Shown here: positions 48,489 through 53,497 of the stretch, piece after piece
Numbering within the stretch: position 1 is the stretch's first letter
How the letters are laid out: every line of letters begins with the position of its first letter
DNA from: Halobellus limi
GTDB lineage: Archaea > Halobacteriota > Halobacteria > Halobacteriales > Haloferacaceae
Assembly: GCF_004799685.1 (NCBI RefSeq)
Contig: NZ_CP031311.1
Span: 2,411,355-2,475,354, forward strand
Direction of reading: 5' to 3'
DNA: 64,000 nt
Made by a program: the position numbers and the translations under genes
Notes under the pieces: generated by a model
Told to the model about the DNA's origin: nothing
The model's database searches: none
What the model saw: the letters and a program-made list of their open reading frames with translations, nothing else

Positions 48489-48530
48489 ATGAACCGCGTA
48501 TCGCTCGTGAACCGGGAGGGACGCCCGTGA
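48489..48530 (+). other. 13-codon leader ORF overlapping the ferritin-like gene
   Basis: ATG at 48489 encodes MNRVSLVNREGRP and its TGA (48528-48530) overlaps the downstream GTG (48527) in a GTGA junction. A TATA-like cgcttaag (48457-48464) lies 25-32 nt upstream, exactly the leaderless spacing for this ATG. Translation of the short ORF could feed ribosomes to the downstream start. Confidence 0.45.
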
Positions 48531-49021
48531 GCGTGGGTCACCAGGTCACCTCCGATCACCAGCTCGCGCGCCTCCTCCAGATCGGGATCGTCCTCGAGGA
48601 GGTGGTCGAGGCCCGATCGTACCACCACTACCAGTCCCTCGACGACGCGCCGAAGCTCGACCCCGAGATCGAGTCGCTCTTAGAGCACGCCGCGTCCGAG
48701 TCGGCCGAGCACCGGGAGCGACTCGAGGCGCTCGTCGACGAACTCGACGCCGAGAGCATCCCGTTCGACGAGATCGAAGCGCTCGTCCAGGCGCAGTACG
48801 GCGGAACCGAACCGGAGGACTTCGACGACATCCTCTACGATCAACTGTGCAACGAGGAGACGGCGTACAAGTTCTACGACGATCTCATCGGTGCGCTCCG
48901 GGCCTCGGAGGCCACGTTCGGCATCGATCGCGACCGCCTCATCGACACCCTAGTCGACATCCGCGAGGAGGAAGCCGAGGGCGTCGAGGAGGTCACGAAA
49001 ATTATGAACGACCGCCAATGA
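48527..49021 (+). CDS. Ferritin-like domain protein of the SirR locus
   Basis: 164 residues, four-helix bundle. Putative metal ligands are the Glu/His set in GIVLEEVVEARSYHHYQSL (about 20-38), ASESAEHRERLEALVDEL (about 56-73) and NEETAYKFYDDLIG (about 109-122). I recall it as a ferritin-like protein encoded just before SirR/DtxR regulators in haloarchaea. It may store or handle iron or manganese. GTG start with an overlapping 13-codon leader ORF. The regulator starts 31 bp after its stop. Confidence 0.82.
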   Translation: MSVGHQVTSDHQLARLLQIGIVLEEVVEARSYHHYQSLDDAPKLDPEIESLLEHAASESAEHRERLEALVDELDAESIPFDEIEALVQAQYGGTEPEDFDDILYDQLCNEETAYKFYDDLIGALRASEATFGIDRDRLIDTLVDIREEEAEGVEEVTKIMNDRQ

Positions 49022-49052
49022 GACGACACACGACGCACCACGGAGGACGGAA

Positions 49053-49505
49053 ATGAACACCGCCGACCAGTACGTGAAAGCGATCTACCTCCTCCAGCAG
49101 ATGGAGAACGGGCCCGCCTCGACCGGGGCGCTCGCGGATCGTCTGGAAGTGAGTCCCGCGAGCGCGAACGAGATGATCGGAAAGCTCGAATCGCGGGGGC
49201 TCGCAGAGCACGAGAAGTACAAGGGCGTCACTCTCACCGACGAGGGTATCGTCCGCGCCCGCGACGCCCTGCAGACGTACTGCATCATCGAACGGTTCCT
49301 CTCGAACGTGCTGTCGGTCGCGGAGTTCCGCGCGGAGGCGCGCGAACTCGAACCGGTCATCGACGACCTGGTCGCCGAGCGGCTCGACACGATCATCGAT
49401 CGGAGCTCGGAGTGCCCGGACTGTTTCGACCCAGAGACCGACGCGTGCTGTCACCTCGACGTCCCCACCGAGAGCGTCGAGACCGAAGAGCAGCACGCCG
49501 ACTGA
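49053..49505 (+). CDS. DtxR/MntR-family metal-dependent regulator (SirR-like)
   Basis: 150 residues. The winged helix is TADQYVKAIYLLQQMENGPASTGALADRLEVSPASANEMIGKLESRGLAEH (about 3-53), followed by the metal-binding dimerisation region (IIERFLSNVLSVAEFRAEARELEPVI). The C-terminal end has Cys-rich CPDCFDPETDACCH (about 126-139), a possible extra metal site not present in classical DtxR. It should repress iron or manganese genes when metal-loaded. GGAGG at 49042-49046 gives a strong ribosome-binding site, in keeping with its non-leaderless position in the operon. Confidence 0.9.
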   Translation: MNTADQYVKAIYLLQQMENGPASTGALADRLEVSPASANEMIGKLESRGLAEHEKYKGVTLTDEGIVRARDALQTYCIIERFLSNVLSVAEFRAEARELEPVIDDLVAERLDTIIDRSSECPDCFDPETDACCHLDVPTESVETEEQHAD

Positions 49506-49868: not shown

Positions 49869-49941
49869 AGTCCCGTGGTGTAGTGGCCAATCATATGGGC
49901 CTTTGGAGCCCATGACGGCGGTTCGAATCCGCCCGGGACTA
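49869..49941 (+). tRNA. tRNA-Gln (anticodon UUG)
   Basis: The full cloverleaf folds by hand. Acceptor stem AGTCCCG pairs with CGGGACT (49934-49940). A short D stem and an anticodon stem TGGGC/GCCCA enclose the loop CTTTGGA, whose anticodon is TTG. The T stem GGCGG/CCGCC carries the TTCGAAT loop. The discriminator is A at 49941, with no encoded CCA. No intron is present. A box A-like gttttcaaag lies upstream near 49836-49845. Confidence 0.95.
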
Positions 49942-50401
49942 TCCACTTTCCGTTTGTAGTCCCCGAGTCGAATCTCCAGCCGCGCGCACCCGGCTCGCAT
50001 CGTCTGGTGCTGAACGGACGTCGCGCAAGCAGCGACACGCGGAGAGAACTCTCTCGCCCAGCCCCCCGATTCGCCGGCCCCGACCGCTGGCCCCTCCGCG
50101 AGGACACCGACCGGAGAGCGGGGGCGTGGACTACGATGAGACACGAATATCATATGTGAGAATATAAGACGAGGATACTTATACGAAATTTCACTCGGTT
50201 GATTTGGTTGAAAATCAACAGACGAAGGCGGATTCGATGTCACGTATGTCGACGACCGAGCTACCGGACAGTTATCATACACTGTAAACTGCGTTACGTC
50301 GATGGGGACGTTCGATCACCGACGCCGCACGGAGCCCGCGGCGATCGGCAGTCGAACACGTGGTGCGGGCTCGCCTGCTGGGGATTTTTGCCGATCAATG
50401 T
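49942..50401. other. 460-bp gap before the surface-protein gene, AT-rich in part
   Basis: No gene is seen. The section 50140-50280 is clearly AT-rich for this genome, with tatcatatg and atacttatac elements. An 8-bp inverted repeat GTTGATTT (50198-50205) / AAATCAAC (50212-50219) surrounds a six-base loop. A TATA-like cttatacg near 50179-50186 is a candidate promoter for the surface protein with a leader of about 190 nt, and a weaker gattttt near 50382-50388 is an alternative. I found no repeat of the tRNA 3' end to mark an integration site. Confidence 0.5.
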
Positions 50402-53400
50402 ATGACAGGAGATACGACCCGTGTTCGTGCGGTTTCTCTCGTAACGATTCTGATTCTCAGCGTTCTCGGTGGAGCAGGCGCGTTTTCCACAGCGGCCACC
50501 GCCGACCAGGGCAGCATTAGCTTCGACGCGGCGAGCTACTCCGACGGTGACACCGTCACGGTCACCGTCGACGACGCCGATCTATCGACGACTGAAGAGT
50601 ACGTCGTCAACATCGAATCAGATACTGAATCACAATCACTAGGACTAGGTCAAAGACCAGGCACTTCAATCAAATATACTACTAAAGCAAGTGTCGCTGA
50701 CCAAAATTCAGATAATAAAGTAACTAAGGAGGACATTGAATATCAAGATTCTGATGGTGGAAATAATGAAATAGAGAAAACCAGTAGGAATGACAATGGT
50801 ACTGTGACAATTTATTTCAAAAACCCACCAGCATCAAACGATGCTATTGACTATACGGTAGGTGAAACAATACTTCTAACACATACAACAGATTCAGACT
50901 TCTCAGGAAATATTGGAATAAGTACTACCGATAGTATAGGAGTTTTACAAATAACTGATGGAGATTCAATCACCTCGGACTATTTTGACACCAGCACCAA
51001 TACCAGATTAGTTACATCTGCGATTGTTGACGAAGACCCGGATCCACTCACACTCGGACCGATAACAGAGTTTTCCATCGACGATCTTTCAGGAACGAGT
51101 CTGTCTCACACCGAGAGCGTCGTCGAGATTCCGTTCAGTGAGGACGTCTCGAAGGCCGGCGGGGAAGCCGGAGCGCTGACGCTCGCGGACAACATCACCG
51201 TGACCGTCGGCGGGGTCGACGTGACCGACCGCTACACGCTCGACGCGGACGGATCGACCGACGGGCAGGTCGTGTTGAGTTCGGAGACGCCGGTCGATCC
51301 GCGATCGAGCGTGACAGTCGGAATCGACGCGGTGAACGACTCGATCGACACCGAGACGATCGAACCCGGTTCGGTGGACGTGACCGTGGCGAGCGCGACC
51401 GTCAGCGAGGACGAGGGGAGTGTGAACGCGTACGAAGGGTCGGTTCTGGCGTTCGTCGCCACGGACGGCTCCGCCGATACCGACCAGGCGTTCGAGGTCG
51501 AAGACGGCGACGGAACGTTCGTCTTCTCCGGACGCACCGGGGCCGGAAGTCAGGTGTTCGCCTTCGACACGGCGGCCCGGAACTGGAGCGGGGAGTACGA
51601 GATCGAGACGCACCTCGAAGACGGGTCGATGGATCGAGAACTCGGCGTCACGCTCCGAGAGCTGGCGGTGAGCGTCGGAGTCGACGATCGAAACGTCACC
51701 ACGGCCGACGCCGTCGAGGGGGAAATCAGCGCGAACGCCGCGGGTCGAGTCGTCGAAGTCGCTCTACATTCGGTCGACGACGGCGACGTGATCGAGCGAA
51801 CGAACCTCACGCTCGGCGGCAACGGGGGCGCGACGTTCGACTTCGCGCCGGCGACCGTCTCGGCGGCGGGGCCGGGGAACTACACGGTCGCCGTGACCGA
51901 CGCCGGAACCGGTTCCACGAACGAATCGGCCCGAATACGCGTGGTCGACGCCGGAGAGCGAACCGCGTCGTTCGGCTCCCCGACCGTCGAGGAGCACGCC
52001 GGCGACGTCGTCGAGTTCGTGGTCGATCTGCGGTACGCTGACACCGCGACTCTGACGATCGGGAGCCCCGAAGACGGCTTCCGAGCCAACGTGACGGTCG
52101 ACGACGGGAACGGCGACGGGACCGTCCGCGTGCGGTTCAACACCGCGGCCGCGGTCGGGGCGACCACGCTCCCGTCCGACGGTGGCGCGGTGTTCGGAGT
52201 CGGTGTCGCCGACGGGGGCGACGACTCCGGCGACGCCGTCGTCTCGGCGGATATCGACGACGAGCACGCCCTGACGGCGTCGATCGACCCGGGAGAGTAC
52301 GACCTCGCCGTCCGCTCCGGTCCGGACCCGAACGGCACTGCGGAGCAGCGTGGGACCCTCCTCGTCGGCGCGGCCGCACCGAGGGGTCTCACCAACTGGG
52401 TCGCGCCGGCCGGGTCCGCGCTCTCGACCCGCGGCGACGTTTCGGAAGCGGTCGAGAGCGGCCGGCTCACGAGGGCCACGACGATCGCGGCCGGGGACGT
52501 CGTGATCCACCGTCTGATCCTCCCGGGACTCGGAGGCGAGTTCGCTCGCCGCTCCGGAACGGCGACCGAGACGTTCTTCGCGCTCGCCGGGACCGACGCC
52601 GACGCGCTGTACGCGCTCAACGTCACCCAGCGGACGGCGTCGTCGAACGACGACGGCGCTCGATACGGACTGGACGAGAGCGACGCCGAGGTCGTCGCCG
52701 ACCCGGCCAACGACACCTACGTGATCGCCTACGAGAGCGGTGACGAGGCCGGCCTCCGCGCCGGCGACTCGCTCTCGGTCTCGTTCGTGGCCGCCGAAAA
52801 CGGAACGTACGACGGTCTCGACGCCGAGGAGCGGACGCTCACGAGCGACTACGAACTCGTCGAGGCCGCGATCGCGACCGCGGACGACCCGGTCGTCGTC
52901 GCGAACGCGACGAACCAGTCGATCGCGGGGACGACGAACGTCGCGCCGGGGACCGAACTCGAACTCCGAATCCGCTCTGTGAACGGCACGGACCCCAGGT
53001 TCCTGAAGACGACGCGGGTCGTCGTCGAGGCGCAGGGACGATGGTCGGCCGAGGTCGACTTCGACGCACAGCGGGTCGGCGACCGGTTCACGGTGGCCTC
53101 CGCCGTCGAGGTCGTCGCCGCCGTGGACGAGTTCCTCGTCGACGGCGTGGTCCGTGCCCTCGTCCCATCGAGGGTCGAACTGACACCCACGACGACAGCG
53201 ACCCCGGGCATCGCCGGTGGTGGAGGACAGAGAGCGGACAGTGCCAGCGGGGGCGGCTCATCGGCGTCGGACGAAGACGAATCGGTGGCGACCAGCCAGA
53301 CCGCAACCCCAGAAGAGAGCGGGGACTCCGCGGAGTCGGTCGTCGATTCGACGCGACGGTTCCTCGGCGGCGTGCTCGGAACGTTCGTCGACGGATCCGA

Positions 53401-53497
53401 GGAGGAGACGCTCCGAAGTCGGCTGCTGGGCTTCGACGTCCTCGTCTCCCTCGGCGCGTTGACGACGGTCGCGCTCTTCGTTTCCCGGCGGGAGTGA
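50402..53497 (+). CDS. Secreted BGTF-type surface protein with C-terminal anchor
   Basis: 1031 residues. A signal peptide (about 1-34) ends at AATADQGSI, followed by beta-rich repeats. ASFGSPTVEEHAGDVVEFVVDLRYADTATLTIGS (about 520-555) matches the haloarchaeal BGTF surface domain. Many N-x-S/T sequons suggest N-glycosylation. A Ser/Thr/Glu-rich stalk (950-995) precedes a final membrane helix and short basic end (LLGFDVLVSLGALTTVALFVSRRE), an archaeosortase-like tripartite tail in atypical form. Residues about 73-212 are encoded by AT-rich DNA (about 36% G+C over 50641-50940) with rare codons, unlike the rest. It is probably part of the cell envelope. Confidence 0.86.
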   Translation: MTGDTTRVRAVSLVTILILSVLGGAGAFSTAATADQGSISFDAASYSDGDTVTVTVDDADLSTTEEYVVNIESDTESQSLGLGQRPGTSIKYTTKASVADQNSDNKVTKEDIEYQDSDGGNNEIEKTSRNDNGTVTIYFKNPPASNDAIDYTVGETILLTHTTDSDFSGNIGISTTDSIGVLQITDGDSITSDYFDTSTNTRLVTSAIVDEDPDPLTLGPITEFSIDDLSGTSLSHTESVVEIPFSEDVSKAGGEAGALTLADNITVTVGGVDVTDRYTLDADGSTDGQVVLSSETPVDPRSSVTVGIDAVNDSIDTETIEPGSVDVTVASATVSEDEGSVNAYEGSVLAFVATDGSADTDQAFEVEDGDGTFVFSGRTGAGSQVFAFDTAARNWSGEYEIETHLEDGSMDRELGVTLRELAVSVGVDDRNVTTADAVEGEISANAAGRVVEVALHSVDDGDVIERTNLTLGGNGGATFDFAPATVSAAGPGNYTVAVTDAGTGSTNESARIRVVDAGERTASFGSPTVEEHAGDVVEFVVDLRYADTATLTIGSPEDGFRANVTVDDGNGDGTVRVRFNTAAAVGATTLPSDGGAVFGVGVADGGDDSGDAVVSADIDDEHALTASIDPGEYDLAVRSGPDPNGTAEQRGTLLVGAAAPRGLTNWVAPAGSALSTRGDVSEAVESGRLTRATTIAAGDVVIHRLILPGLGGEFARRSGTATETFFALAGTDADALYALNVTQRTASSNDDGARYGLDESDAEVVADPANDTYVIAYESGDEAGLRAGDSLSVSFVAAENGTYDGLDAEERTLTSDYELVEAAIATADDPVVVANATNQSIAGTTNVAPGTELELRIRSVNGTDPRFLKTTRVVVEAQGRWSAEVDFDAQRVGDRFTVASAVEVVAAVDEFLVDGVVRALVPSRVELTPTTTATPGIAGGGGQRADSASGGGSSASDEDESVATSQTATPEESGDSAESVVDSTRRFLGGVLGTFVDGSEEETLRSRLLGFDVLVSLGALTTVALFVSRRE

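Follow-up and report, generated by a model that had tools for sequence, protein, structure and literature searches.

Two divergent versions of an AT-rich segment, probably exchanged at a fixed locus, in a surface glycoprotein gene of Halobellus

Trans-species polymorphisms such as those of MHC and ABO, like dimorphic surface antigens, are cases in which a surface molecule carries two ancient groups of alleles whose distribution disagrees with the species phylogeny. High rates of recombination are well known in haloarchaea (PMC5867893 and works cited therein), and the variation described before now in their surface proteins is mainly that of whole genes and islands. In Haloquadratum walsbyi, surface glycoproteins vary at a fixed locus, GI1, with evidence of recombination, and this variation has been read as evasion of viruses; the exchanged units there are for the most part entire genes or stretches of tens of kb, although a single event of ~250 bp within an S-layer gene has been reported too (PMC3119063, PMC4535781). 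In this study, we analyzed a window (the whole stretch of 64,000 nucleotides of Halobellus limi DNA) that contains a strongly AT-rich block inside a surface glycoprotein gene. The reading that we consider probable is that the block encodes an exchangeable, likely cell-distal part of the protein, that two old versions of it are swapped at one fixed locus in Halobellus, and that its AT-richness is a local equilibrium of base composition.

The block belongs to an S-layer-type surface glycoprotein gene on the forward strand (50360..53497), for which ATG at 50402 is the likelier start and GTG at 50360 an alternative. The product is ~1030-1045 residues long and related to haloarchaeal S-layer glycoproteins. 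It scores 324.4 bits with NF041335, the model of the ArtA-dependent S-layer glycoprotein, under the curated whole-protein cut-off of 1100, and is a relative, not a member, of that family. It is a BGTF surface domain-containing protein, with a match to NF045517 of 74.2 bits (cut-off 40) at residues 842-914 (52883..53101, forward strand), and it carries a DUF7827 domain (PF25162, 80.3 bits) at residues 528-654 (51941..52321, forward strand). Residues 15-49 (50402..50506, forward strand) are a probable signal peptide region, to which point a hydrophobic stretch in the translation and a weak halo_sig_pep match at residues 22-49 (13.0 bits, under the 24.6 cut-off). A C-terminal hydrophobic segment and the known layout of S-layer proteins suggest an outward-facing N-terminus. 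Elsewhere in the same genome, three related surface glycoprotein genes in tandem (L002, L003 and L004; G000:C1:790190-798827) have NF041335 scores above that of the window gene, and one of them may therefore encode the main S-layer protein.

The locus is one fixed chromosomal position in the host genus, marked by a tRNA-Gln upstream of the surface glycoprotein gene (49869..49941, forward strand) that is kept in five of the seven named Halobellus relatives; Halobellus rarus is the nearest of these, and the gene is also present at six other named Halobellus loci. Upstream of the tRNA, at 48527-49505, lie a sub-threshold rubrerythrin-like protein and a DtxR-type iron-dependent repressor. Between the tRNA and the glycoprotein gene, an AT-rich region at 50130-50296 has the second-lowest GC content in the window and is probably a promoter.

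The composition of the block is exceptional for this DNA. The count that had first drawn attention to it, 107 G or C in the 300 bases of 50641-50940 with an open reading frame, is exact (35.7%), and the lowest 300 bases of the entire window, 50672-50971, reach 33.7%, next to a window mean of 69.0% and to 51% for the next-lowest stretch, the promoter region. A log-odds segment scan delimits an AT-rich segment at 50580-51036/51095 with a score of ~91-94 (at most 24 for any other segment), which fuses with the promoter region under a looser model. GC3 in the block of the window gene is ~0.2, whereas none of the 23 other long GC3-rich open reading frames in the window holds a run of 140 codons with GC3 below 0.81, and the 5' drop in GC3 of ordinary window genes is nearly absent (0.90 vs 0.92). 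When GC3 is pooled over 12 Halobellus species, a two-change-point fit places the block at residues 84-229 (50609..51046, forward strand), with a GC3 of 0.33 inside and 0.83 outside. Codons rare elsewhere are frequent in it, as originally proposed: in the pooled orthologs AAA makes up 74% of Lys codons (12% elsewhere), ATA 38% of Ile codons (1%) and TTA 22% of Leu codons (0%), to which AGA can be added at 36% of Arg codons (1%). At fourfold sites A is at 0.40-0.44 and T at 0.26-0.28, and C and G are both low; this depletion of both, with A above T, makes one-strand deamination unlikely. The description of the encoded residues as neutral and rich in Asn, Thr and Ser fared less well. Ser and Asn are indeed enriched, as are Ile, Lys, Tyr and Gln, and Ala is depleted, but the share of Thr is the same inside and outside (11.0% vs 11.0%) and the segment is as acidic as the rest of the protein, with a net charge of -0.12 per residue.

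A full-length ortholog, 52-72% identical to that of the window, is present in each of 11 other Halobellus genomes, one copy per genome, and the AT-rich block is found at the same aligned codons in 12 of 12 orthologs, which excludes a recent gain confined to the window's strain. A recently acquired foreign cassette, which would be absent from close relatives or GC-rich in them, was rejected on the same count. The block tree splits these sequences, with 100/100 support, into two classes. Class A comprises the window species, H. rarus, H. inordinatus, strain Atlit-31R and two more Halobellus; class B comprises H. captivus, H. rufus, H. salinus, H. clavatus and two more. The two are ~40% identical, with block identity between classes flat at 0.39, and certain short insertions in the alignments occur in class B alone. 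The class difference resides in a dimorphic core at residues 91-170 (50630..50869, forward strand), where identity is 0.50-0.66 within classes and 0.23-0.49 between them. The remaining half, residues 171-229 (50870..51046, forward strand), is hypervariable without being class-specific (identity 0.38-0.49 within and between classes) and as AT-rich as the block as a whole, with a GC3 of 0.33. Within the core, both classes have a similar form of a DxNxDxx(I/V)xxxDI motif (DQNSDNKVTKEDI; 50699..50737, forward strand), which may bind calcium. Pfam returned sub-threshold noise only on the N-terminal domain, weak dockerin and EF-hand matches included; a PDB sequence search had no match. AlphaFold models of the class A and class B N-termini have mean pLDDT values of 51 and 58, too poor for a fold assignment, and PDB fold searches with the poor class B model, whose matches fell mainly after the block, were set aside.

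Within a class, the block has diverged about as far as the rest of the gene (mean identity 0.55 vs 0.58 in one class and 0.52 vs 0.54 in the other), and in class A the two diverge in step (rho 0.64, p = 0.007); the corresponding correlation in class B is not significant (rho 0.30, p = 0.20). The original prediction had named as its counter-case an AT-rich block conserved in all relatives at the identity of its flanks. Half of that holds: all relatives carry the block, but only relatives of the same class are about as similar in it as in the rest of the gene. A and B both occur within each of three well-supported close groups, with a between-class divergence that exceeds the divergence of the flanks, and dS is higher in the block than in the flank directly downstream for all three pairs that allowed its calculation, and saturated in a fourth. 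The allele classes thus appear to be older than the species, as in a trans-species balanced polymorphism. With one genome sampled per species, so that the trees compare species representatives and not alleles within a species, this pattern could mean that the allele classes arose before several of the speciation events or that species have exchanged them repeatedly.

Several lines of evidence show that the block has been exchanged. The identity matrix of the block shows no correlation with the one for the remainder of the gene (rho 0.10; at least 0.55 for contiguous 149-aa controls from the gene), a result that stems from the split into classes A and B. The split requires five changes on the rest-of-gene tree and four on the tree of the rpoB region, and a class A clade is rejected on both (AU p = 2.8e-62 and 6.8e-54, respectively). 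The rest of the gene has itself recombined, joining G005 with G004, whereas the rpoB region joins G005 with G000, the window's genome. Three close pairs of opposite class (L015/L017, L009/L013 and L008/L010) locate the exchanged segment: DNA identity falls from ~0.83 in the flank to 0.50 inside residues 93-223. In L015/L017 the DNA is 83-90% identical over residues 45-94, then 36-66%, and recovers near residue 225-245; the other two pairs show a similar pattern with a somewhat lower identity in the entry flank. The sharp drop in identity that the original prediction looked for is therefore present in opposite-class pairs, within the N-terminal region of the glycoprotein. The gene is an intragenic recombinant (mosaic), its segment tree conflicting significantly with the flanks at breakpoints at residues 93 and 223, and these breakpoints nearly coincide with the GC3 change-points at 84 and 229. 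On either side lie conserved GC-rich sequences in which homologous exchange can pair: an entry flank at residues 50-83 (50507..50608, forward strand), in a region without class difference (residues 31-90), and an exit flank at residues 230-346 (51047..51397, forward strand), where opposite-class pairs are mostly back to 73-96% nucleotide identity.

Two readings would do without exchange between cells. The first holds that the N-terminal domain evolves fast and convergently and that the conflict between trees is due to saturation. Many within-class branches of the block tree are weakly supported, as this reading would have it, but the A|B split stands at 100/100, short insertions set class B apart, and the close pairs lose DNA identity abruptly, from about 66-83% down to 33-40% in the space of ten codons; we regard it as very improbable. 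In the second, silent cassettes, inversion or a diversity-generating retroelement would rewrite the block within a cell line. Its sharp, cassette-like borders and its hypervariability are what such a system might produce. Antigenic variation from silent donor copies was nonetheless rejected, since the block is single by DNA in the window's genome, where no second copy was found, and single by profile in every Halobellus genome; a diversity-generating retroelement was rejected on the lack of a second copy and of any RVT_1 (reverse transcriptase) match in the window's genome; and no inverted or direct repeats bracket the block. We find programmed variation barely credible. With a single copy, no RVT_1 match or bracketing repeats and a fixed locus, ordinary homologous replacement between cells is the simplest mechanism, as the breakpoints suggest.

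The source of the AT-rich sequence is a separate matter. Profile scans of viral contigs with whole-domain and class-specific block alignments found no homolog, nor did tblastn searches of phages and plasmids, so the viral matches expected by the original prediction did not appear. Homologous N-terminal domains do exist in relatives of 46-52% GC that share the GTDB genus, and they are AT-rich as well (GC ~0.37). It could be, then, that A and B reside in mobile elements or in low-GC haloarchaea outside the genomes sampled so far, from which Halobellus lineages repeatedly take them up. Exchange itself is demonstrated, and the spread of block GC3 among Halobellus species (~0.2-0.5) is what unequal residence times could give. 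We nevertheless consider repeated import rather unlikely: the low-GC homologs form a separate outgroup, only ~0.25-0.37 identical to class A or B, viruses, phages and plasmids gave nothing, and class A block divergence follows the rest of the gene. A foreign cassette was likewise rejected on donor matches, the only homologs being these outgroup sequences. The original view of a cassette acquired by recombination is thus partly supported: the block recombines as a unit between sharp breakpoints, but the evidence does not favor a cassette that is viral or newly acquired by this strain.

The domain has a wider distribution. The low-GC relatives have two to three surface genes each with the same N-terminal domain (L078 and L083 in G015; L080, L084 and L086 in G016), followed in several of them by PT-rich linkers, and in a gene of another haloarchaeal family (L106) the domain occurs twice in a row at an ordinary GC3 of ~0.86. 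Related surface glycoproteins of 8 other genera have, in every usable pair, lower GC3 and lower identity in their N-terminal 5-22% than in the remainder, by margins that are small for some pairs and with a drop weaker than in Halobellus.

Our preferred reading, exchange of two old versions, can be put as follows. Versions A and B would coexist across Halobellus at a single, fixed chromosomal site, and a lineage would change from one to the other through homologous recombination in the conserved, GC-rich DNA that directly borders residues 93-223. Both versions would be retained by diversifying or frequency-dependent selection, for which viruses, predators or cell-cell and mating recognition are likely agents by analogy with Haloquadratum. 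Escape from phages or predators, as originally suggested, is plausible on that analogy (PMC3119063, PMC4535781).

The AT-richness probably reflects a local equilibrium of base composition. Under the substitution process of the flank, GC3 of the block at the split of L001 and L008 would have been 0.03 (95% -0.19 to 0.16), against 0.23 today, and the value is negative with a wider flank. Ancestral values this low, or negative, suggest that the block has an AT-rich equilibrium of its own and is not an import undergoing amelioration, an argument that rests on one unsaturated species pair. Parsimony polarization of synonymous changes favors whichever state is in the majority and was given no weight as proof. 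An AT-rich equilibrium might be set by selection on codons or RNA, if AT-rich rare codons or unstructured mRNA slowed or eased translation and export and every allele had to keep them. The block lies toward the 5' end of a gene for a secreted protein and is AT-rich in 12 of 12 species and in both classes despite turnover at synonymous sites. However, the edges of composition lie near the edges of allele exchange, well downstream of the start codon; four paralogous surface glycoprotein genes in the window's genome have no AT-rich block; the homolog in another family, L106, is GC-rich at third positions; and Rfam has no element in the block. We therefore hold selection at the nucleotide level to be unlikely.

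The most attractive cause would be that the divergent versions cannot pair, which would spare the segment the drive toward GC that accompanies recombination and shapes the genome elsewhere. We offer this tentatively and with more doubt than confidence. In its favor, GC3 is lower in non-recombining genes of bacteria (Lassalle et al. 2015, PMC4450053). Against it, gene conversion in Haloferax volcanii has no clear dependence on GC (PMC8223754), and residues 601-660 and 751-840 of the same protein are divergent (identity 0.38-0.51) yet have a GC3 of ~0.85, which speaks against divergence alone as the cause. If the escape from GC drive is true, the polymorphism would expose a mutation-only composition inside one gene and would show what sets the high GC of haloarchaea. 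More broadly, the locus offers a compact natural setting in which to ask what maintains surface variants, be it virus attachment or recognition between cells, and whether haloarchaeal genomes owe their high GC to recombination.

Comparison with known systems shows what is new here. The link between GC content and recombination described by Lassalle et al. (PMC4450053) predicts lower GC3 where recombination is reduced, but it was drawn from whole genes in bacterial datasets, whereas here a very large contrast (GC3 0.33 vs 0.83) lies inside one gene. The S-layer glycoprotein of Haloferax likewise has two divergent types in one genus and intragenic recombination, but its types are whole-protein variants (PMC5867893), and the composition drop there is weaker and not that paper's subject. 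In L036 and L037, which are presumably from Haloferax and are S-layer orthologs above the NF041335 cut-off, identity and GC3 are low at residues ~51-155; the correlation of the two is not significant in this pair alone. The layout published for HQ1193A/Hqrw_1236 of Haloquadratum (~220 aa, a PT repeat, ~900 aa; PMC3119063, PMC4535781) fits the gene with the homologous domain in G014 (C3:261095-264742), which, if G014 is strain C23, would lie inside the C23 DV2/GI1 coordinates 260966-269209. Unlike at GI1, the unit of variation in Halobellus is a segment of ~440 bases inside one gene, present in two classes across many species of the genus, with an AT-richness that is nearly co-terminous with the exchange. 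As in MHC and ABO, two old classes persist in a surface molecule, compared here between species representatives.
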